Assembly (NCBI GenBank): GCA_949297765.1 | Contig: CASFTV010000026.1 | Span: forward strand, 1-64,000 | Direction: 5' to 3' | Length of the DNA stretch: 64,000 nucleotides | Source: an uncultured bacterium | Lineage (GTDB): Bacteria; Verrucomicrobiota; Lentisphaeria; Victivallales; UBA1829 | In this document: positions 4,037 to 64,000 of the stretch, in pieces | How positions within the stretch are numbered: the first letter of the stretch is position 1 | How the letters are laid out: every line of letters begins with the position of its first letter | Notes under the pieces: generated by a model | Database searches by the model: none | What the model was told of the DNA's origin: nothing | The model's input: only the letters and a program-made list of their open reading frames with translations | Position numbers and translations under genes: made by a program

Positions 4037-4813
4037 TTATTTCGGCCAATAGGGATATGCGCGTTCCGTTTCGCCAAGATTCTGGACGCCGAAACGCCAG
4101 CGGCGGTTGTAGGTGATGTCAGACACATTCCCGGCTGTTTCCTGAAAAACATGGCCGTCGACCGCCAGAAGGTTATCTTTTCTCTGATGGCGGTGACCGG
4201 GATAGGCGTTCAATTTTGTCGCATTGGAAATCTTCATGGAGGCATATACATCATCCTGACTTATATAGTCTGAATTCAGCTCGTTCAAGGAGAAATTGAA
4301 ATCTCTCATAATTGCAATTTCCGACGGCTGTTTGCATTTTGTGAGCAGCCGCTGCGCATACAATTCATTGGTTCCAAATCCGGCAAATGCATTCCAGGCA
4401 TAAGAGGTCAGCGGGACGGTTCCCAAGCCGCGTCCGGCTGCGCTGGACCCCCACCAGCAGCTCTGGTCATCCGCGGTCGGACAGAAGAACACCTTGTTCA
4501 GCCGTTCATCAACGGGGATCTCCCCCTTGACCAGATACGGATGAAGTTTGGATACAAACTGCGGACGCATTTTGATCTTCGTGATCACTCCCTCGTCAAA
4601 TCCGGGTTGATAATCCAGATTGTCTCCGGCATACTGAACCATCGCCAGACCGAACTGCTTGGCGTTGGCTGCACAGGAAATCTGCCGCGCCCGGTCCCGC
4701 GCTGAATTCAATGCGGGAAGCAGGAGCGAAACAAGAATGGAAATCACCGCAACCACAATCAGAAGTTCAATCAAAGAAAAATAAAAAAGAGATTTGCCAA
4801 CCATTCGATGCAT
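4037..4813 (-). CDS. Pseudopilin-like protein (prepilin-type N-terminus, D-G-H C-terminal motif)
   Basis: The 258-residue protein opens with a short basic segment, then [11 protein letters not shown] and a hydrophobic helix ending [10 protein letters not shown], the signature of type IV pilin and type II secretion pseudopilin N-termini. Glu at +5 of the mature helix is present, but the residue before the Phe is Tyr, not Gly. The C-terminal globular part carries H-R-H followed by L-L-A-V-D-G-H, the motif of the processing-associated prepilin families common in Planctomycetes and Lentisphaerota. GGAGG lies about 6 nt before the ATG at 4813, which decides the start against a TTG upstream. It is the first gene of the operon, ahead of the GH39-like enzyme 24 bp downstream. 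Confidence 0.85.
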
Positions 4814-10359: not shown

Positions 10360-13300
10360 ATGAACCGATTTCTTTTCCTTCTCTTTCTCTGCTGCACGTT
10401 TTTCACTTTCTCCGGGAACGGGGAAAGCAGGAGTTTTCAAATAAAATCCGATGGTTCCTTTCAGGCGGAGGATCTTCTGTTTGCGCTTGTTGTGCGGAAT
10501 CCGAAATGGGCCTCTTCGATTCAGAGCGGCAAGACCATTCGCGCTTCTGCGGATATCCCGCAGACCGACCGGAATCTCTTCCGTCTTCAGGGGGAATTCC
10601 GGGTTCGCAACGGAACATTTCAACTGGATGAGACATTTGTTTTCCTCCCTTCAAACCGGGCCCGTTACGAAGTGGATCTGCGTTCTGCCGAACCTGTCCC
10701 TTGCGCGGAGCTCTGTCTGGAAGCCCGTCTTCCGGTTTCCCGTTTTCTCACACGGGAGATCCGCTTTGACGGGAAAACCGTCAATTTCGGAAAAGATTAT
10801 CAGCTGAAACGCTGGGTTCTGGATCTGCCCGTGAAGCGGATCGAAATTCCTCTTCAAACGGGAACGCTGTATATGGAAGGCAATCTGCGTGTTCGCCTTC
10901 AGGATAATCGCCGCTATCAGAAAAACGGCGACTGGAGTTTGCGGATTCTCCTGAATCCCCGTTCCGGAACGATCCGGGAGGCCGGACTGAAACTGGATCT
11001 CCGCGCTGTTCAGCCGTTTTCCTGTCCGCTGGATCTTTCCGCGAGTGCGAATATGGGATTTGCGGATCCGGTGGCGGAGGACCATGCCGGCGGCTGGACC
11101 GATCAGGGACCCGACAACGATCTGCGAATGTTCCCTGCGGGGAAACAGTTCTTTGCGGGGATCCCATTCCGGATTCCCCGTCCGGAGGAGAATGGAGGGA
11201 AGGCGGTTATTGCACTTCGTGGAGAGCAGCGGCCGTATTTCCCGTCGTCTGCGGAAGTGGCTGTTCCGGAGGGGACTCGGGCAAGGTATCTCTGGATTCT
11301 GCATGCTCTCGGGTGGGAGCCGAAAAGCCGGAAGGAGGTCGGGAGGATCACTGTCGAGTATGAGAACGATGGGTTTACGGAACGGGACGAGGAGACGTTC
11401 CCGGTCCGGAGCGGAGTGGAGGTTGGCAACTTCTGGGGACCGCGCACTTTATCCCAGGCATCTGTCGCATGGAAAGGAAGAAATTCCAGTGCGGAGATCG
11501 GAATTTATGCAACACGGTTCAAATTGTCGGGCAGGAAGATCCGCAGGATTCGTTTCTCCAGCGAGGGCAATGCCGCATGGCTGATCGCGGGGGCCACACT
11601 TTCCGATTCCGCCGGGAATACCGGCGCGGGCGGAAGCGGAACACCGGTCATCATCGGAGCAGGACCGGAATGGATTCCGGTCGAACGGCGGACCACCGTG
11701 ATCCCGGGGAGCATTCTGGATTTTTCCGGGCTGCTGCATCGTCCGGCCGGGAAATACGGCTATCTCCGGAATGTCCGCGGCCGGTTTGAATTCGAGAAGC
11801 GTCCCGGTGTTCATGCACGTTTCTACGGAGTCAATATTGCGTTCATGGTGAATTTCATGGATAGAGAACGGACAGACCGGCTTGTGGAACGTCTTTCCCG
11901 CTCCGGCTACAATCTTCTGCGTCTTCACCATTTTGACGATCTGCTGACGGAGGCGCCGCATCGGGGCGATTCCCCGTTTGTCGGAGAGCGTCTGGACCGC
12001 CTGCATTATCTGATCGCCCGCTGCCGGGAGGCGGGAATCTATCTCACTCTGGATCTTTATACCTGCCGGAAACCGGATGCGTCGATCGCCCGTCTGGTGA
12101 AGGGGGGAACCGTGTATGGAGCCGAATACAAGGCGCTCTTCTTCCTGGATGAGGGAGTCCGGAACGACTTTTTTGCATTTTCCAGACGCCTTCTGAGTAC
12201 CGTCAATCCCTACACCGGTCTGGCTCTGAAGGATGATCCCGCCGTGTGCATGCTCAGTTTCCTGAATGAGGATACGATCTTTGCCACCGCAAAACGTACG
12301 CCTCGGATTGCTGCATTGTTCGAGGAGAAATATCAGCAATATTTGAAGAGGAATCGTCTTGTTCTCACACAGAAAAACCGGAATGCGCTCTGGCGCGCTT
12401 TCCTGTCGGATGTCTATCGGAACGGTTTTTCCTCCCTGCGGAAATTTGCGAAGGAAACGGACTTGAAAATGCCGTTGACCGATCAGAACTACTGGACCGA
12501 TATCGGTACGTCGCTCCTTCGGAGTGAGTATGACTACATCGACAATCACTTCTACTGGGCGCATCCCTCCTTCCTCGGCAAAAACTGGCAGCTTCCTGCC
12601 CGGTTTGAAACCAGAAGCGCGATTCAGGAGTTCGCGGGTGGTGTTTCCGGACAATTTCCCTGCCGGGAATTCGGGAAACCGTATTCCGTCAGCGAATGGA
12701 ACTACTGCCATCCAAACCGCTTCAATCTGGAAGGCGCGTTCCTGATGGGGGCGTATTCCGCTCTGCAGAACTGGGATTCCCTCTGCCGGTTCGCTTTTTC
12801 CCACACGATCCGCTCTCTGGATGACAGAAAAATCGTGACAACGTTTGATCTGGCGGAAGATCCGGTCCGAACACTTTCTGAAATCGCGGGCCAGCTTTTC
12901 TTCCTGCGTGGAGACGTGGCGCCTTCCGGACGCAAATTTGTGATTCTGCTTGATCCGGATCACTGGAAAAATCCTTCAAATCCTTCCGGATTCCCTCTGA
13001 CCCTGCGGCGTCTCGGCCTGATCGGACAAACCGGATTCCTGATTGCGGGGCCCGGTAAAGACATTGTTCTTCCGGCACAGAGTTCTCTGGTCTCCGGATC
13101 GGAAAGCCTTCGGGAACATTTTGCTGGAGTTCTTCCGTTTCTCTCATGGAAACTCGGAATTGCGGAAGGAATGCGGGAAATCGTCAAAGCCGGACTCCTT
13201 TCCGCGGAAGAGGCAGAAAACAATCGTTTCCGCAGCGATACAGGAGAAATTCTTCTCGACAGTAAAAATACGACCTTCCTGGTATCCACCCCCCGCAGTG

Positions 13301-13752
13301 AAGGAATGGTCCTGGAAAAGAATCGGACTCTGGAAGGAGATTTCGCTGAAGTACATAATCCGGATACCTTCGCAGGCGTTTTGATCGCGTCGAAAGACGG
13401 AAAATCCCTGAAGGAAAGCCGCCGGCTTCTGATCCTTCATCTGACCCGGATCGCCAATACCGGAGAGACCTATCGTGATACAGACTGCAACATTCTGGAG
13501 TCGCAGGGAAAAAGTCCTTTGCTCTTGCGCAGGGGAAAAACGCAAATGACTCTGAGGAGAAATTTTCAGGGATTTCGTCTTTATGCGGTGGATCCGAATG
13601 GAAGACGCCTTTTCGAATGTCCGTTCCGCACGGAAAACGGAAAAACAATTCTTGAACTGGACAACAATCGCGGCGGTCGGGGTGTCCTGGCATATGAATT
13701 AATCGAAGCAGCATTCGACTCTCAAACGTCATTGCGGCAAGCAATGCAATGA
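10360..13752 (+). CDS. Large exported clan GH-A glycosidase with N-terminal GGWTDQG module
   Basis: The 1130-residue product has a signal peptide (about 1-20), a beta-rich N-terminal region (about 20-220), the GGWTDQG module (about 224-417, nucleotides 11029-11610) and a TIM-barrel domain (about 455-900). In the barrel, Glu637 in L-N-E-D fits the acid/base and Glu779 in V-S-E-W-N-Y the nucleophile of clan GH-A. A beta-rich C-terminal tail (about 980-1130) closes the protein. It resembles unclassified GH5-like enzymes, and the substrate is unknown. A full-length paralogue with the same domain order is encoded at 51513-54824. Both are immediately downstream of a pseudopilin gene. Confidence 0.78.
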   Translation: MNRFLFLLFLCCTFFTFSGNGESRSFQIKSDGSFQAEDLLFALVVRNPKWASSIQSGKTIRASADIPQTDRNLFRLQGEFRVRNGTFQLDETFVFLPSNRARYEVDLRSAEPVPCAELCLEARLPVSRFLTREIRFDGKTVNFGKDYQLKRWVLDLPVKRIEIPLQTGTLYMEGNLRVRLQDNRRYQKNGDWSLRILLNPRSGTIREAGLKLDLRAVQPFSCPLDLSASANMGFADPVAEDHAGGWTDQGPDNDLRMFPAGKQFFAGIPFRIPRPEENGGKAVIALRGEQRPYFPSSAEVAVPEGTRARYLWILHALGWEPKSRKEVGRITVEYENDGFTERDEETFPVRSGVEVGNFWGPRTLSQASVAWKGRNSSAEIGIYATRFKLSGRKIRRIRFSSEGNAAWLIAGATLSDSAGNTGAGGSGTPVIIGAGPEWIPVERRTTVIPGSILDFSGLLHRPAGKYGYLRNVRGRFEFEKRPGVHARFYGVNIAFMVNFMDRERTDRLVERLSRSGYNLLRLHHFDDLLTEAPHRGDSPFVGERLDRLHYLIARCREAGIYLTLDLYTCRKPDASIARLVKGGTVYGAEYKALFFLDEGVRNDFFAFSRRLLSTVNPYTGLALKDDPAVCMLSFLNEDTIFATAKRTPRIAALFEEKYQQYLKRNRLVLTQKNRNALWRAFLSDVYRNGFSSLRKFAKETDLKMPLTDQNYWTDIGTSLLRSEYDYIDNHFYWAHPSFLGKNWQLPARFETRSAIQEFAGGVSGQFPCREFGKPYSVSEWNYCHPNRFNLEGAFLMGAYSALQNWDSLCRFAFSHTIRSLDDRKIVTTFDLAEDPVRTLSEIAGQLFFLRGDVAPSGRKFVILLDPDHWKNPSNPSGFPLTLRRLGLIGQTGFLIAGPGKDIVLPAQSSLVSGSESLREHFAGVLPFLSWKLGIAEGMREIVKAGLLSAEEAENNRFRSDTGEILLDSKNTTFLVSTPRSEGMVLEKNRTLEGDFAEVHNPDTFAGVLIASKDGKSLKESRRLLILHLTRIANTGETYRDTDCNILESQGKSPLLLRRGKTQMTLRRNFQGFRLYAVDPNGRRLFECPFRTENGKTILELDNNRGGRGVLAYELIEAAFDSQTSLRQAMQ

Positions 13753-56912: not shown

Positions 56913-56943
56913 AAAAAACGGGACAGGAAAGAACCCTGTCCCG
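56913..56943 (-). terminator. Intrinsic terminator of the GH127-pseudopilin-GH2 operon
   Basis: On the minus strand a perfect 9-bp stem (CGGGACAGG / CCTGTCCCG, 56919-56927 and 56935-56943) with a 7-nt loop is followed by six T residues. It lies 14 bp after the stop of the GH2-like gene and is the clearest intrinsic terminator in the window. Confidence 0.9.
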
Positions 56944-56957
56944 GGAATTTGCGATGT

Positions 56958-59900
56958 CTACCAGCGGCAGTAGCGATAGGGATCATCCGCCTGGATCGGT
57001 TCGTCCGTATAGAAGGAGAATGTTTCCCGGAGCTTCCGGATGGTCGGGATTCCCCAGATCCCGCCGCTCATCTGCAAATCGTTGCAGAGAATCACAAGCT
57101 GGTTTCCGGTCCTTTTCAGAATCTTTCCGGGAAATGGATGGAATCGCCGCTGCACCCAGTAGTTCTCCGGATTGCTTTTCTGAGTGACCGATCCGATGAA
57201 TTTGCCGTTGATCCAGCACCAGGATTCATCATCGACAGCCGGAATGTTCAGAACATATTCCCCGTTCAGATCCGCTTTCCGCGGCATGTCAAAGGTCCGG
57301 CGATACCAGAACCAGCCGTTATAGTTTTTCAGGTCGTCAAACTGGGCTTCGAAAACACCGTTGACTCTGGTTTTCCGCCATTTTCTGTCCGAGGGGAATG
57401 ATCCTTTGTGCCAGCCGTTTTCCCGACCGGTTTTTGCGGGATCTTCCCGTCCGAGCCATCCGTCGGCCAGTTCCACATTGCGGGCGCGGAAGTCCGGATC
57501 GAACATCAGAGGTCTGACACGGTCCGCCGCTCTGAGATTATGGAGCAGACGCGACATCAGAAATGTCGTCCGGCGGATGGTGGAGCGGTACTGTCTCTCG
57601 CCGGCGTCAAACTGCCAGGGTGCAACCAGACTGACCACCAGACGGCCTTTCCCGATCCGGAATACCCGCAGTGCGCGTCCGCCATCTCCTTCCGGATGGA
57701 ACGACAGGGGAATCGGCGATCTCCAGTGAAGATCTGCATTGGAAATCCCGCTGAACTCCGGATGATCCGCCAGGCCGTTCACAGAATCCGGAAAATGCCG
57801 GCCGGGAACCGGCAGTTCCTCCGGCTTCAGAAGCGCGGCAAGACTTTCCCGCTCCGGAGCAAGAAGCAGAAGATCCGCACCGTTCTCCAGAAGCCTCTTG
57901 AAATCCTCCGGCCTGCTTCCCGGCCCGAGTACAAGAAGAGTGTCCCCTTTGACCGCATTCCTGTCTTCCGTATAGCGGATCTGCAGCGAATCCAGAAGTT
58001 TCCTCCCTCTGGAGTCTCCCAGGTAGAGGACCGGACGGGAAGCAAATGCCTGCGCTCCGTTCAGACGGCGCAGAAGACGGCGGAATGTGTTTGCCGCTTC
58101 AGGATCCTGTTCCGATCTTCCGGAAAGATCCATTTGAGAATAAAGAATGTAACCTTTCCCGGCAAACATCTCCAGAACCGGGGCATACTGCAGGTCGAAT
58201 CCCCCCTCCATCAGAGGACGGAAGTTGCCGACCGGCGGTTTCTCAATCAGAACGCTGCTGACATTTCCTCTGTTTCCCGCACGCCAGTTGTGGTTCACAA
58301 AAAGTCCGTTGAAACTCCATACCGGATACAGCGTTTCCAGTTTCGGAAGATTCAGATACCTGCCGGTCAGCGTCGACGAACCGCGCCACCAGCGCTGAGG
58401 ACGGAAATCCGGAGCCAGAGAAAACACCTGACGGAGTCCCTGAACATTGACACGGAATCCCATTCTCTGGAGATCGTCCATTTCCTGTTCCAGAACAAGG
58501 ACTTTCAACCCCCGCTCAATTTCCTCCGTCAGAGAAAACGGAAGGTGTTTCATTCCCCGGCGTCCGATGATCAGCATCGTCACATTTTTCAGATCCTTTT
58601 TGCTCCTGATTCGGCGAAACGCTGTTGTCCCGGCCTCTTTCAGCAGAGTTTCCGCCGTGCCTTCCGGATCATAAATTCCCAGCGAGGAAAGAGATACCGG
58701 TTCTTCGGATGGAATTACATCCACCCGGAAAGAGTCTTTTGAACCTGTTCCGTCAGGGAATCGGAATTCCGCCTGAATGGTGATCGAATCACGAGGATAG
58801 TTCTCCGGAATTCTGAATTCCACCGGGACTGATCCTGTTGTTCCGGTCGCCAGTTCCAGTTTTTTTTCCAGAACGATCTCAAGTTCCGGGATCCTTGCCC
58901 GGCAGACGGCCGTTCCTGTTCTGCGGGAATCATTTGCCACGATCAGCTGCTTGGAAACAAGCTCTCCGCGGGCGAAGTTGTGTCCCTTTTCCGAGAAATC
59001 GCCTTCCTTCCCTGCGATGAATCCGAGATAATCCGCAAAACAGGCCGCGACAATCTTTCCCATATCTGTCAGCCGGAATGTCCCATGTCCATCTCTGTCC
59101 GGCCGGAATCCGTGGGTCTTGTGTCCGGAACTGGCAAAATAATCGGGTACGCATCCGCGCCGTTTCAGATTCCGGTACGCATTCAGGTTAATCTGGTAAT
59201 TCTGCAGATCATCCGTTTTTTCCCAGAACCATTGATAATCCCATGGCGCGATCCAGGAAATGCCCCGGATCCGGAATGCCCGGAAGTTCTCCCGAACAAA
59301 TTCATTCAGCAGAGGCCGTGCCGGACGGAACGGATAGCAGAATCCCCACCAGAAACTGATCGGTTTGTTCCCGAGATTTCTGGTCTGGGAGTCCAGCAGA
59401 GCCTTGTCCTCTCTGGTGAGACGATAGGCCTCCGGTCCCAGAAATTCCGCATGATATTCTTCCGGAAGGAACCACTGATTGACGTTCTTATGCCAGATCA
59501 TCGAACCGTTGCGGTAACTGGAATAACTGGCGGTATGCGGAATCCCCCATTCGCTGAGCATCAGAGGGCGCGTCCCGTGCTTTTCCCAGTGTTCGAACCA
59601 GTCGGAACGCTCCTGGATCGGCGCCCAACAGAGATAAAAGTTGGCGGCATAAACACTGTTCCCCGGAGAACCCGCGTGATGGTAAACCACTCGCTCCGGA
59701 TCAAGCGCGTTGACAAGTTTTTCGGCTTTCAGCGCCTGAAGGCGCTGTTCATTGTCGAGATCCGGATCGCCCGGCATTCCGATTTTCAAAGGGTTCTGGT
59801 CTGCGATATGTCCGACTGCATTGTGGTTCATCGTGTACAGAACCACGCCCGGAAGATTCTGGAATCTGCGGATCAGGTGTTCCGCGTGCTGACGGTAGAG

Positions 59901-61634
59901 CGCACGTTTTTTCGGATCGTCCAGATTCCAGTCATATTGCGCGGCGTGCGGAAGAGTCAGGGCGGAGAGCAGACCGAGCCGGGAAGACTCCTCATACACA
60001 TTGTCGATGTATCCGACAATGCCGGGTTTGAAGGAATAATCAAGCCCGTAAATGGCATTGAAGTTCGCTTCTTTGATTCTCCGGAGAACGTTGCGGACCC
60101 CTTCCCGGTGAGCTTCAAATGCTCCGTTCCTGGCACAGGCCACCGCCATGCTGCGCAGATGTATGATGCTTCCGTTCAAATAGAAGTTCCGTCCCTCTTT
60201 CCAGAATTCGCGGAATCCGAATTCCTCCGGGAACAGAGTATCCCGCTCGTTGTTTCCATCCCGCTCCAGTGAGATCTCCGCACGATACAGGTTTTCCGGA
60301 CGGTCGGTATCCCACAGCTTCGGATTTTCCCAGGAAAATGTGAACTGTCTGCGGAGTCGGACCGCAGCATCCGGAATCCGGAAGGAGGAGGAAAACTCCC
60401 GGACCGCCCGATCCCCGTCAAAGACGATCGCTTTCAGACGGTAGTTCCCCGGTGCCGCATCGCGGATTCCCGCATCAAACGTGATCGTTTTCTGCCGGAC
60501 CGAGGGGATGATGTGCACATCGGAAAGCGAACTCTCCTGCGGCAGCGCTTCCAGATAAAGATCTCCCGTAATCCCGCGGAACGGCAGACGTCCCGAAACT
60601 TTCACAACCACATCCGGCGCCATGAAAAGCGATCCGTTTTTCTCCGGATTGGCGGACACCAGGATCGCCACTTCCTGCCGTCTGCCCGGAATCAACTTTC
60701 CCGTGAGATCCAGTTCTCCCCCGGGGAAGTCGATCTCTCCAGCCTCCTGGCGATCAATCAGAACCTTTGCTCTGGTCTGGAGCATTGTGAAGGTCAGAAT
60801 GAGCTTTTTTCCGCTCCAGTCCGCCGGGACCGTGAAAATTCTCCGGTACCACGCTTCATTCAGCTTCAGCGGATCCGTTTTTTCCGCATAGGGCGAGGCG
60901 ATGATCTCTTGAGAATTTCCCGCAGTGTCCATTCCGTTCTCCGGCCAGGCTCCGGGAACCTTGAACCAGCACCAGCCGCTGCCGTCCCTGGGGAATTCCT
61001 TCGCCGGCGAACCCGCTTTCAGAGGGAAAAACTGCCACAGCCCGTTCAGGCAGATCCTTTCCCGCGATCCGGTTTTCCAGCGTTCCGCCCCTTCCAGATT
61101 CATTATGCTTTCGACCGTTCCTTCGGGAGGTGCCGCATCAAGATTTGTGATCCTGTTGCCGGTCACCGGGGCGACGGTCATGTCGAGAAAGTCAACTTTC
61201 CCGGAGACCCCCATGTTGGCAGGAGTGATCCGGACCGTTGTCGCGCCCGCAGGAATCCGGTAAAAAAGTTCATGCCGTTTCTGCGAGTTCCCGTATGCGG
61301 TCGCAAACGGCGGCCAGCCGCCGACCTGACGGTTGTTTCTGTCGAAAAAAAGGATTTCCAGTTTCGCGGTCTGCCAGTCGAGTTTGCCTCTGACAACCTC
61401 CTCCGTCCACAGAACGAAACGGAAGATCAGTCCCTTCCATTCCGGATTCAGGGGAAAGTAGCGAACCGCCGCACCGCTCCCGGAAATCGAAACGTTCAGT
61501 TTCCCGTTGTCTTCTTTGATCCGGACCTTGCCCGGTACGGTTTCCTTCCAGTTTTCCGGAGTCAGGAAATTGCCGGCATCTCCGAACACGCAGATACATG
61601 ATGCCAGCAGCGCGATGAGTACAAAACGATACAT
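56958..61634 (-). CDS. Very large exported GH2-like protein with an altered acid/base position
   Basis: The 1558-residue protein has a signal peptide (about 1-18), an N-terminal CBM-like domain (about 20-160), GH2 sugar-binding and Ig-like domains (about 190-490) and a TIM barrel (about 495-840). One or two amidotransferase-like Rossmann regions (about 990-1330) and a C-terminal galactose-binding-like domain (about 1420-1555) follow. Glu695 in L-S-E-W-G fits the nucleophile. At the acid/base position, where GH2 enzymes read G-N-E, it has M-N-H-N (602-605), with His604 in place of Glu. It may be a lectin-like or mechanistically altered member. It is the last gene of its operon. Confidence 0.8.
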   Translation of the reverse strand: MYRFVLIALLASCICVFGDAGNFLTPENWKETVPGKVRIKEDNGKLNVSISGSGAAVRYFPLNPEWKGLIFRFVLWTEEVVRGKLDWQTAKLEILFFDRNNRQVGGWPPFATAYGNSQKRHELFYRIPAGATTVRITPANMGVSGKVDFLDMTVAPVTGNRITNLDAAPPEGTVESIMNLEGAERWKTGSRERICLNGLWQFFPLKAGSPAKEFPRDGSGWCWFKVPGAWPENGMDTAGNSQEIIASPYAEKTDPLKLNEAWYRRIFTVPADWSGKKLILTFTMLQTRAKVLIDRQEAGEIDFPGGELDLTGKLIPGRRQEVAILVSANPEKNGSLFMAPDVVVKVSGRLPFRGITGDLYLEALPQESSLSDVHIIPSVRQKTITFDAGIRDAAPGNYRLKAIVFDGDRAVREFSSSFRIPDAAVRLRRQFTFSWENPKLWDTDRPENLYRAEISLERDGNNERDTLFPEEFGFREFWKEGRNFYLNGSIIHLRSMAVACARNGAFEAHREGVRNVLRRIKEANFNAIYGLDYSFKPGIVGYIDNVYEESSRLGLLSALTLPHAAQYDWNLDDPKKRALYRQHAEHLIRRFQNLPGVVLYTMNHNAVGHIADQNPLKIGMPGDPDLDNEQRLQALKAEKLVNALDPERVVYHHAGSPGNSVYAANFYLCWAPIQERSDWFEHWEKHGTRPLMLSEWGIPHTASYSSYRNGSMIWHKNVNQWFLPEEYHAEFLGPEAYRLTREDKALLDSQTRNLGNKPISFWWGFCYPFRPARPLLNEFVRENFRAFRIRGISWIAPWDYQWFWEKTDDLQNYQINLNAYRNLKRRGCVPDYFASSGHKTHGFRPDRDGHGTFRLTDMGKIVAACFADYLGFIAGKEGDFSEKGHNFARGELVSKQLIVANDSRRTGTAVCRARIPELEIVLEKKLELATGTTGSVPVEFRIPENYPRDSITIQAEFRFPDGTGSKDSFRVDVIPSEEPVSLSSLGIYDPEGTAETLLKEAGTTAFRRIRSKKDLKNVTMLIIGRRGMKHLPFSLTEEIERGLKVLVLEQEMDDLQRMGFRVNVQGLRQVFSLAPDFRPQRWWRGSSTLTGRYLNLPKLETLYPVWSFNGLFVNHNWRAGNRGNVSSVLIEKPPVGNFRPLMEGGFDLQYAPVLEMFAGKGYILYSQMDLSGRSEQDPEAANTFRRLLRRLNGAQAFASRPVLYLGDSRGRKLLDSLQIRYTEDRNAVKGDTLLVLGPGSRPEDFKRLLENGADLLLLAPERESLAALLKPEELPVPGRHFPDSVNGLADHPEFSGISNADLHWRSPIPLSFHPEGDGGRALRVFRIGKGRLVVSLVAPWQFDAGERQYRSTIRRTTFLMSRLLHNLRAADRVRPLMFDPDFRARNVELADGWLGREDPAKTGRENGWHKGSFPSDRKWRKTRVNGVFEAQFDDLKNYNGWFWYRRTFDMPRKADLNGEYVLNIPAVDDESWCWINGKFIGSVTQKSNPENYWVQRRFHPFPGKILKRTGNQLVILCNDLQMSGGIWGIPTIRKLRETFSFYTDEPIQADDPYRYCRW

Positions 61635-61655: not shown

Positions 61656-62381
61656 TTATAATTCCTGAGTCCGCCAGAAGGTGGAATACTGATACCCTGT
61701 CCGCCAGTAGGCGTCGTTGGCAAAATCGCAGTGGGCTTTGCTTTTGAATTCCGCATGTCCGTCTACGAAGAGCAGGTTGGCTCCCATCCCGTTATGGCGC
61801 ATCCCGAGACGGGTCACGGGATTGTCCAGATAAACGGCCCGGTTCCCGTTGGTCGCGTCTCCCCGACAGCAGTCGGCAACCTCCATTTGCTTTGACGGCT
61901 GTTTGAACTGATCGGTCTTGTACTGGATGTAGCCTTTGGTCGAGTCGTACATGAAGATGTTCATGCCGTAATTGCTGTATTCCACATTGTTTGTTCCGAT
62001 ATTGGTGTTCTCGCCCGGACAACCGAAAACTCCTTTCGCCCTCAGATCCGTGTTGTATCCGAACCAGGCCCCTGTTTTGGAATCCGGCCGGACACAGTGG
62101 CGGTACAGAAGGTCCGGCCAGAAATCGTATGCCCGTGATCCGTTGAGAAACTCCGCCGGCGTTTCTGTCGTTTTCGTCGGGATGTATCCGTCAAAATCCA
62201 TGGAATAGATCTGCAGAAAGCTGCCGATCTGCTTCAGATTGGAGAGACACTGCATGCTCCGGGCTTTCTCCCTTGCGGAATTCAACGCCGGAAGAAGCAA
62301 CCCCGCAAGAATGGCAATGACCGCAATCACGACAAGAAATTCTACAAGTGTAAACACATTCCTTTTCTTCGATTTTTTCAT
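61656..62381 (-). CDS. Pseudopilin-like protein
   Basis: The 241-residue product begins M-K-K-S-K-K-R-N-V then [17 protein letters not shown] and [14 protein letters not shown]. Glu is at +5 and Val at -1. The C-terminus has [25 protein letters not shown] lies just before the ATG, which decides the start at 62381 over a longer in-frame extension. The ATG overlaps the TGA of the GH127 gene by four bases (62378-62381), and the GH2-like gene follows after 21 bp. The pilin is thus locked between two glycosidases. Confidence 0.87.
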
Positions 62382-64000
62382 ACGCTTCTCCTCTCTGTTG
62401 TATAATATAACGGATCGTTTCTTAACCCCCCGGTTGAGACGGTCGGGAAATAGGTCCGGGTGCGGTGTTCTCTTGAAAATCGCGTAAACAGGACGTCCAT
62501 CCGGGGATGAGTCTGATTCGGAAGCACGCACGGGACCCGGATCCCTTCCGCTTCCGCGGCAGAAGGCTGTGTGTTGTCAATGGTCAGAAGATCCATGGAG
62601 TAGTTCGAAAGTTGATTGCGGTCGGATTCCACCGCGTAAACCAGCGGCCCGCGCATCAGTGCGGCGCGGTTTGTCTGCGCTGCTGTGCCGCGGATCAGGC
62701 AGACCGGCATCGGAAGGTTGATCTCCATTTCGTGTTCGCCCGCTTCGACTGGAAGAGAAAACCAGCCGGAGGATGCATTGAATTCCCTTCTGGTATCCGA
62801 AATCCTTGCTCCGGGACACCATGTCGGAATCCGGAGCGTCAGAGTGAAGTCTGCGGACGCGGAAATTTTCAGGTGGACCTTCTCCGATTCGGGATACAAG
62901 GTTGTCTGTTCAATTCTTGTTCCCGGAAGCGTCAGGACAGAATCCGTGTAAAGATTTACCGCCACGCCGTCACCGGTTTCGAAATAGACCGCATCCGGAA
63001 GTTCGAACATCATGCGCCGCAGGTTGTTCGGACAGCAGTAGGTTTCGTGTTCGTACCATTGACCGGGTTCGTTGAACGGAATGAAATAACGCTGGCGCAT
63101 ACCGTCTTCCGACTGCGCCCCGAAGAACGCGTTATACAGAATCCGTTCATAAAGATCGCCGAATTTCGGATCGGCATCCAGCTCGAACATTTTTGCAGCG
63201 CAGCGGAGCAGATAGGCGGAAACACAGGTCTCCCCCCATCTGCCCAGTCCGGTTTGCGAATCGTCCCACACCTCGCCCCAGTTGATTCCTCCCGAGCAGG
63301 AGCCGGAGATCGAAGAAAAACGGCGGAAGACTCTGTTCCAGAGTTCCCGCACTCCCGCAAACAGGGCAGGCGACGAATCCCCGGTCAGAAGGGCATATTG
63401 AACCTGAGAAAGAACGCGGGCAATCCATGTATAAACATGTGCGATTCCGTTGATCGGAAGCATGCGGTCATAGACATCCAGCGATTCCGTCAGCCGCAAT
63501 TCTTGGCGGCAGTAATCAAGAAATTTTCTGTCTCCCGATTCCTGAAAGAGCATCAGAAACGCCGTTTCCAGTCCGATGGTCGGCAGCGTTTTCCGTCCGA
63601 CGAGAAAATTCCCGAGCCGGAGTGCGGCCTCCAGCGAATTCCCCGTCCCGAAACAGCGGTGGTCAAGCACAAACGCCTGAATCATATACGCCTGATCGTG
63701 ATTGTCCCAGAAGCCGGGTTTCCCGGAAAATGCCGTGATCGCTCCATCGTCCGACTGCGTGGCCGTCAGCTGGGCAAGACAATCGGTTTTAAACCGGATC
63801 ATTTCTTCTCCGCCGATGCCGTGGATTGCGGCTTTGACCACCGCGTCAAGAAACATGCCGTATCCGGAGAAGGCCCCTGGAAGGTCCGGCTTCTCTTTCC
63901 GCCGTTGGAAATGACGGACAAAAACTTCTTCCACATCAAGATGATGCAGAATTTTTCCCGCGGTCAGATCCATCCGCCGGCGGATCTCCCCGCCGACCGT
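62378..64000 (-). CDS. GH127-type beta-L-arabinofuranosidase (DUF1680 family), 5' end outside the window
   Basis: At least 540 codons are open to the window edge, and family-like sequence ([11 protein letters not shown]) continues upstream of the first in-window ATG, so the gene is truncated by the window. The (alpha/alpha)6 barrel shows [19 protein letters not shown] and the family's [10 protein letters not shown]. The Cys pair there holds the expected Cys nucleophile and zinc ligand of GH127 enzymes. A C-terminal beta domain follows. No signal peptide can be judged. The family releases L-arabinofuranose from plant-type glycans. It is the first visible gene of the operon with the pseudopilin and GH2-like protein. 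Confidence 0.85.

Follow-up and report, generated by a model that had tools for sequence, protein, structure and literature searches.

The window, that is, the whole stretch of 64,000 nucleotides that was analysed, carries a giant GH2-like gene, P0001, as the last gene of a tight row that runs from a GH127-like gene through a pseudopilin-like gene to P0001 (Table 1). The TGA of the GH127-like gene overlaps the ATG of the pseudopilin-like gene (ATGA), and the latter ends 21 nt upstream of P0001. The ATG of P0001 is preceded by GGGAGGAG, a good Shine-Dalgarno sequence, and a terminator-like stem directly follows its stop codon. An Rfam scan of the whole window returned no matches. The protein begins like a secreted one, and the LASC at residues 11-14 of its signal-peptide-like start could, from its sequence, be a lipobox. 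As a secreted protein, P0001 belongs to a GH2-derived superfamily that is common in Lentisphaerae and related phyla. The GH127-like neighbour weakly suggests an arabinose-bearing glycan.

The three domains that characterize GH2, an N-terminal jelly roll, an Ig-like domain and a (β/α)8 barrel, were all found in P0001 with Pfam and in the predicted structure. The barrel profile PF02836 scored 20.2 bits, just below the Pfam cut-off of 21; it exceeded the cut-off in all eight His-Asn proteins scanned from other genomes and in neither of two other paralogues that lack the acid/base. An AlphaFold2 model of residues 180-860 (mean pLDDT 89.8, pTM 0.92) has the GH2 fold, aligning with 6b6l over 460 residues (VIA Z 24.0, rmsd 3.5), and a second AlphaFold2 model of P0001 reached a mean pLDDT of 89.7. 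The middle region that follows the barrel is present in most homologues, and the C-terminal jelly roll aligned with 6d89 over 142 residues (VIA Z 20.1, rmsd 1.9).

Table 1. Features of P0001 and its surroundings. Residue numbers are those of P0001; counts out of 86 refer to rows drawn from the best 80 of 113 relatives, counts out of 32 to the wider acid/base-less set.
Feature	Position	Strand	Basis or conservation
Giant GH2-like ORF P0001, 1,558 aa	56958..61634	-	ATG start; ORF call and Pfam
Signal-peptide-like start, residues 1-18	61581..61634	-	Sequence
GH2 N-terminal jelly roll, residues 190-345 (approximate bounds)	60600..61067	-	Pfam PF22666; model
GH2 Ig-like domain, residues 370-475	60210..60527	-	Pfam PF00703, 33.1 bits
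(β/α)8 barrel, residues 490-840 (approximate bounds)	59115..60167	-	PF02836; DSSP of model
His563, end of β3	59946..59948	-	His in 71/74
Asn603-His604-Asn605 after β4 (G-N-E in ordinary GH2)	59820..59828	-	His604 85/86, Asn605 86/86
His653, end of β5	59676..59678	-	74/74
Glu675, short helix after β6, candidate acid/base	59610..59612	-	86/86 (partly pre-selected); 31 Glu and 1 Asp of 32
Glu695, nucleophile, β7, in S-E-W-G	59550..59552	-	86/86; 32/32
Strand-rich, then α/β region, residues 865-1370	57525..59042	-	Weak DUF4350 match, E 0.028
Second GH2-N-type jelly roll, residues 1385-1548	56991..57482	-	PF02837 47.4 bits, PF13364
Terminator-like stem, 10 pairs and T-run	56919..56943	-	
Pseudopilin-like gene (N_methyl, DUF1559), ATG at 62381	61656..62381	-	
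GH127 (β-L-arabinofuranosidase)-like gene	62378..64000, continues to 64168 of contig	-	
Pseudopilin/giant pair 1	4037-4828/1079-4030		
Pseudopilin/giant pair 2	9553-10332/10360-13752		
Pseudopilin/giant pair 3	18890-20455/15155-18877		
Pseudopilin/giant pair 4	29018-29845/24904-28998		
Pseudopilin/giant pair 5	34692-35324/35296-38775		
Pseudopilin/giant pair 6	54836-55597/51513-54839		
Pseudopilin/giant pair 7	61656-62381/56958-61634		
Pseudopilin/giant pair 8 (beyond window)	72242-73069/70026-72245		

The active site of the P0001 barrel

In GH2, the acid/base is the Glu of an NE motif after β4, which the P0001 clade lacks. Searches of genome contigs gave 113 related stretches, of which the best 80, together with seven loci from related genomes and P0001, made up an alignment of 89 rows. 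The site was covered in 86 of these, three being dropped as too short there, and a few rows were near-copies of one another. No Glu occurs at positions 600-609 in any of these 86 full-length rows, drawn from the best 80 of the 113 relatives, seven loci and P0001, which is more than chance would give. In the AlphaFold2 model, β4 consists of residues 597-602, and the NHN motif directly follows. The residue that replaces the Glu is 604, 605 or 606, a choice that sequence cannot settle, as three registers disagree and none gives Glu. In an ungapped count from the N-x-P-S motif, Asn605 of P0001 stands at P+10, the position of the Glu in the ordinary GH2s that its genome encodes. HMMER against 5uj6 opened a one-residue gap and placed His604 on the acid/base position, and hhalign, run against ten ordinary GH2s from that genome, paired Asn605 with the Asn of NE and Ala606 with its Glu. 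Of 88 homologue rows aligned to a canonical barrel HMM, 38 gave alignments across the site, with Ala in 18, His in seven, Asn in five, other residues in eight and Glu in none, at low to middling posteriors in the rows shown; the P0001 alignment itself does not cross the site. The absence of the acid/base Glu beside a kept nucleophile, Glu695 on β7, is thus confirmed as real in P0001. The earlier note had claimed both, and both hold in all 86 rows, while its placing of His604 at the acid/base position is only one of the three registers. A sequencing or frame error behind the missing Glu was ruled out, since the open reading frame is intact and the motif is common to homologues from other genomes.

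Asn605, Asn665, Tyr667, Glu675, Glu695 and Pro699 are each invariant in the 86 rows drawn from the best 80 of 113 relatives, although one of the two fetch patterns was QE[RK]SDW[LF]E and Glu675 was therefore partly pre-selected in this set. His604 is replaced once in the same rows, by Ala in L110. Among 681 columns ranked by information content, His653, His604 and His563 came first, second and third. Record titles in the 86-row set name Lentisphaerae, Victivallales, Kiritimatiellae, Verrucomicrobia, Planctomycetes, Phycisphaerae, Armatimonadetes, Poribacteria, Omnitrophota and Spirochaetes. The clade profile, judged by score and not by motif, matched at E <= 1e-80 in 21 of 145 genomes drawn from the phylum of the window, and the genome that carries P0001 encodes seven members of its His-Asn clade. 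Estimates of dN/dS by counting were about 0.14 for L025/L120 and L025/L121, 0.09 for L029/L102, 0.11 for L029/L103 and L102/L103, 0.18 for the window/L038 and 0.10 for L120/L121; an eighth pair, L026/L119, was nearly identical and gave little information. The values in the seven pairs, about 0.09-0.18, indicate purifying selection and therefore genes kept for a function. Family-wide conservation and purifying selection also ruled out a single decayed copy.

Further positions of the barrel have changed. The β2 Arg that assists the nucleophile, described as highly conserved in GH2 in passages of PMC12243196, is absent at position 529 from all 86 rows, which have I, Y, F, V, T or L instead in the hhalign register; ordinary GH2s of the same genome have both this Arg and the NE after β4 in ten rows out of ten. 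At the end of β3, nine of the ten ordinary rows have a Glu where the clade, in the register of the alignment, has other residues with Pro-His just after. His563 and His604 were found only in the His-Asn clade and are absent from the other clades lacking the acid/base; His653 is more widespread. The missing β2 Arg makes ordinary retaining chemistry less likely, and its loss together with the fixed His cluster speaks for an altered chemistry in the His-Asn clade.

These same observations keep two alternatives alive. A site centred on histidine would have His604 or His653 as the acid/base, or the three His as ligands of a metal, which would be a mechanism new to GH2. In its favour, these His are the three most conserved columns and lie at the ends of β3, β4 and β5, and two of them, His563 and His604, are missing from the other acid/base-less clades. 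We nevertheless find it doubtful: a strict metal site would forbid the Arg or Gln found at His563 in three of 74 rows, the Asn found there in the further relatives L203 and L204, and the Ala at His604 in L110, and the other clades have lost the Glu without gaining these His. The second alternative is a pseudoenzyme: hydrolysis would be lost, the conserved residues would be ligand contacts, and the clade would bind a glycan or present it to partner enzymes. The joint absence of the acid/base Glu and the β2 Arg in all 86 rows and the carbohydrate-binding-type domains on both sides of the barrel agree with it, and purifying selection is equally compatible with binding. However, binding alone does not demand the invariant Glu695, in the 86 rows or in the wider set, and we rate the pseudoenzyme as an unlikely, if serious, explanation.

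Comparison with known GH2 groups

The domain order, the barrel, the nucleophile, the N-x-Y after β6 and the Trp after β8 are shared with ordinary GH2s (5uj6, 6b6l and 5z1a); those of the same genome differ from the P0001 clade in keeping the β2 Arg and the NE motif. According to passages of PMC12243196, the NE acid/base motif is not universal even in accepted GH2 subfamilies. They describe GH2_21 as an active β-glucuronidase subfamily (ulvan-active, UniProt T2KN75) in which the nucleophile Glu is invariant and the acid/base is replaced by Trp, or in others by Lys, Arg or Asn, and in which a second conserved Glu (E402) is hypothesized to be the substitute acid/base. The P0001 clade follows the same principle, in that it also keeps the nucleophile and replaces the acid/base. 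Compared by description only, it differs in lacking the β2 Arg, and the His-Asn motif is not mentioned for GH2_21 in those passages. Some members of GH2_19 (structure 7XYR) have NE replaced by TV, NA or NQ according to the same source, but NE is still its commonest motif, whereas it occurs in none of the 86 rows of the P0001 clade.

Searched with phmmer against the PDB, P0001 matched 8u01 (GH2_20, 5.5e-10), 7xyr (GH2_19, 1e-5) and 9j6m (GH2_18, 1.8e-4), each a single representative here of subfamilies that are linked near E 1e-59 and joined via chains of neighbours. The best of these single-sequence matches, GH2_20 (8U01), spans only residues 259-495, before the active site. A GH2 active on λ-carrageenan (9bey) was dropped as an odd case, since an ordinary β-galactosidase pocket is described for it in passages of PMC12549532. 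Acid/base substitution in GH2 has already been described, for GH2_19 and GH2_21 in the 2025 division of GH2 (PMC12243196), where the His-Asn variant is not mentioned in the passages available. The motif was likewise not found in the GH2 literature searched, including passages of PMC12243196, PMC12549532, PMC11701701 and PMC8511951.

The wider acid/base-less set and the proposed mechanism

With P0001 as the query, 40 matches were found in its own genome, and 61 with a profile built from 17 paralogues. The top 18 of the 61 are paralogues without the acid/base, ordinary GH2s with Glu at the site scoring lower; a single genome of 4.2 Mb therefore has at least 18 acid/base-less members. From 82 sequences found by profile and not by pattern, 32 acid/base-less and 18 ordinary rows were picked by hand, leaving out near-copies and fragments. 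The β4 motif in this set varies by lineage (HN, DFN, GFN, SVN, STN, SMN, INP, DIW and GNI). Glu695 is nevertheless present in all 32 acid/base-less rows, and position 675 is acidic in all of them (31 Glu and one Asp). A tree built with the trait columns left out has all 32 rows on the same side of one branch, at a support of only 48, so that the Glu may or may not have been lost just once. L022 and L023 read GNE in the raw sequence and are thus ordinary at β4. One acid/base-less paralogue (L015:512-4613, contig C57) lies in two overlapping frames of 626 and 862 aa, through a frameshift or an assembly error. The short contigs C76 and C77 each carry a paralogue of some 1,480 aa (L020 and L021) that has Asp at 675; the two are very similar and represent either assembly doubles or a recent duplication.

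About a hundred relatives lack the same acid, which from the alignments suggests a rebuilt active site and not a broken one. With a little less than even confidence, we favour a rebuilt glycosidase that is probably still active, in which Glu695 is the nucleophile and Glu675 the leading acid/base candidate, a reading drawn from sequence, the predicted fold and the analogy with other GH2s. A relocated acid/base is the leading idea because Glu695 is kept and position 675 is acidic in all the acid/base-less lineages examined. The classical Glu after β4 would have been lost and the site remodelled with His563, His604, Asn605, His653 and Glu675; the glycoside would be cleaved via a covalent intermediate on Glu695, the proton would be handled by another residue, most likely Glu675 at the barrel rim after β6, and the His cluster may shape the sugar site or share the proton work. 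The helix with Glu675 starts six residues past β6 by DSSP of the AlphaFold2 model, which would put it at the active-site end of the barrel, a geometry taken from secondary structure only. Against this reading stand the missing β2 Arg, the branch support of only 48 and the ordinary rows, six of the 18 also having Glu in the column of 675, in a gappy stretch of the alignment. An enzyme working with the nucleophile only, whose substrates have good leaving groups or assist through a group of their own (uronate, sulfate or acetamido), would fit the kept Glu695 and the absent acid/base with no replacement residue required, but it leaves the fixed Glu675 and the His set unexplained and is improbable. 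The earlier note was judged right in allowing that another residue may be used, for which Glu675 is the leading candidate. Its expectation of a crippling change in one protein gives way to a trait fixed across a multi-phylum clade under purifying selection, GH2_21 being active without the acid/base according to passages of PMC12243196.

With low confidence, we further propose that the His-Asn clade forms a separate GH2 lineage, as yet unnamed and found across many phyla; in it, the canonical residues of the active site on β2, β3 and β4 would have given way to a His cluster on β3, β4 and β5 and a relocated Glu, with a His- or metal-assisted mechanism that would be new to GH2. Such proteins are easily annotated as β-galactosidases, while their catalytic make-up predicts a different chemistry. 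If they are active, they add a further lineage to those in which GH2 dispenses with its classical acid/base, and a large set of secreted proteins, at least 18 of them without the acid/base in a single genome, becomes open to direct test; if inactive, they form a large family of glycosidase pseudoenzymes.

Pseudopilin-like genes beside giant genes

The contig that carries P0001 contains eight pairs in which a pseudopilin-like gene lies directly upstream of a giant gene on the same strand (Table 1); the pseudopilins at 4037 and 34692 were assigned by sequence motif alone. The giant gene at 10360-13752 (+), also behind a pseudopilin-like gene, encodes a protein of 1,130 aa with no Pfam matches at E 0.01. 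No paper was found in a literature search on pseudopilins, Lentisphaerae and glycoside hydrolases together. The pairing possibly reflects a system in which an enzyme and a pseudopilin serve in export or display. Genome-wide there are at least 150 N_methyl matches and, among those listed, at least 11 of the 18 GH2 paralogues that lack the acid/base are preceded by one on their own strand within 3 kb, against about 0.05 expected per gene. In other genomes, the same neighbour cluster is represented at 24 of 80 loci.
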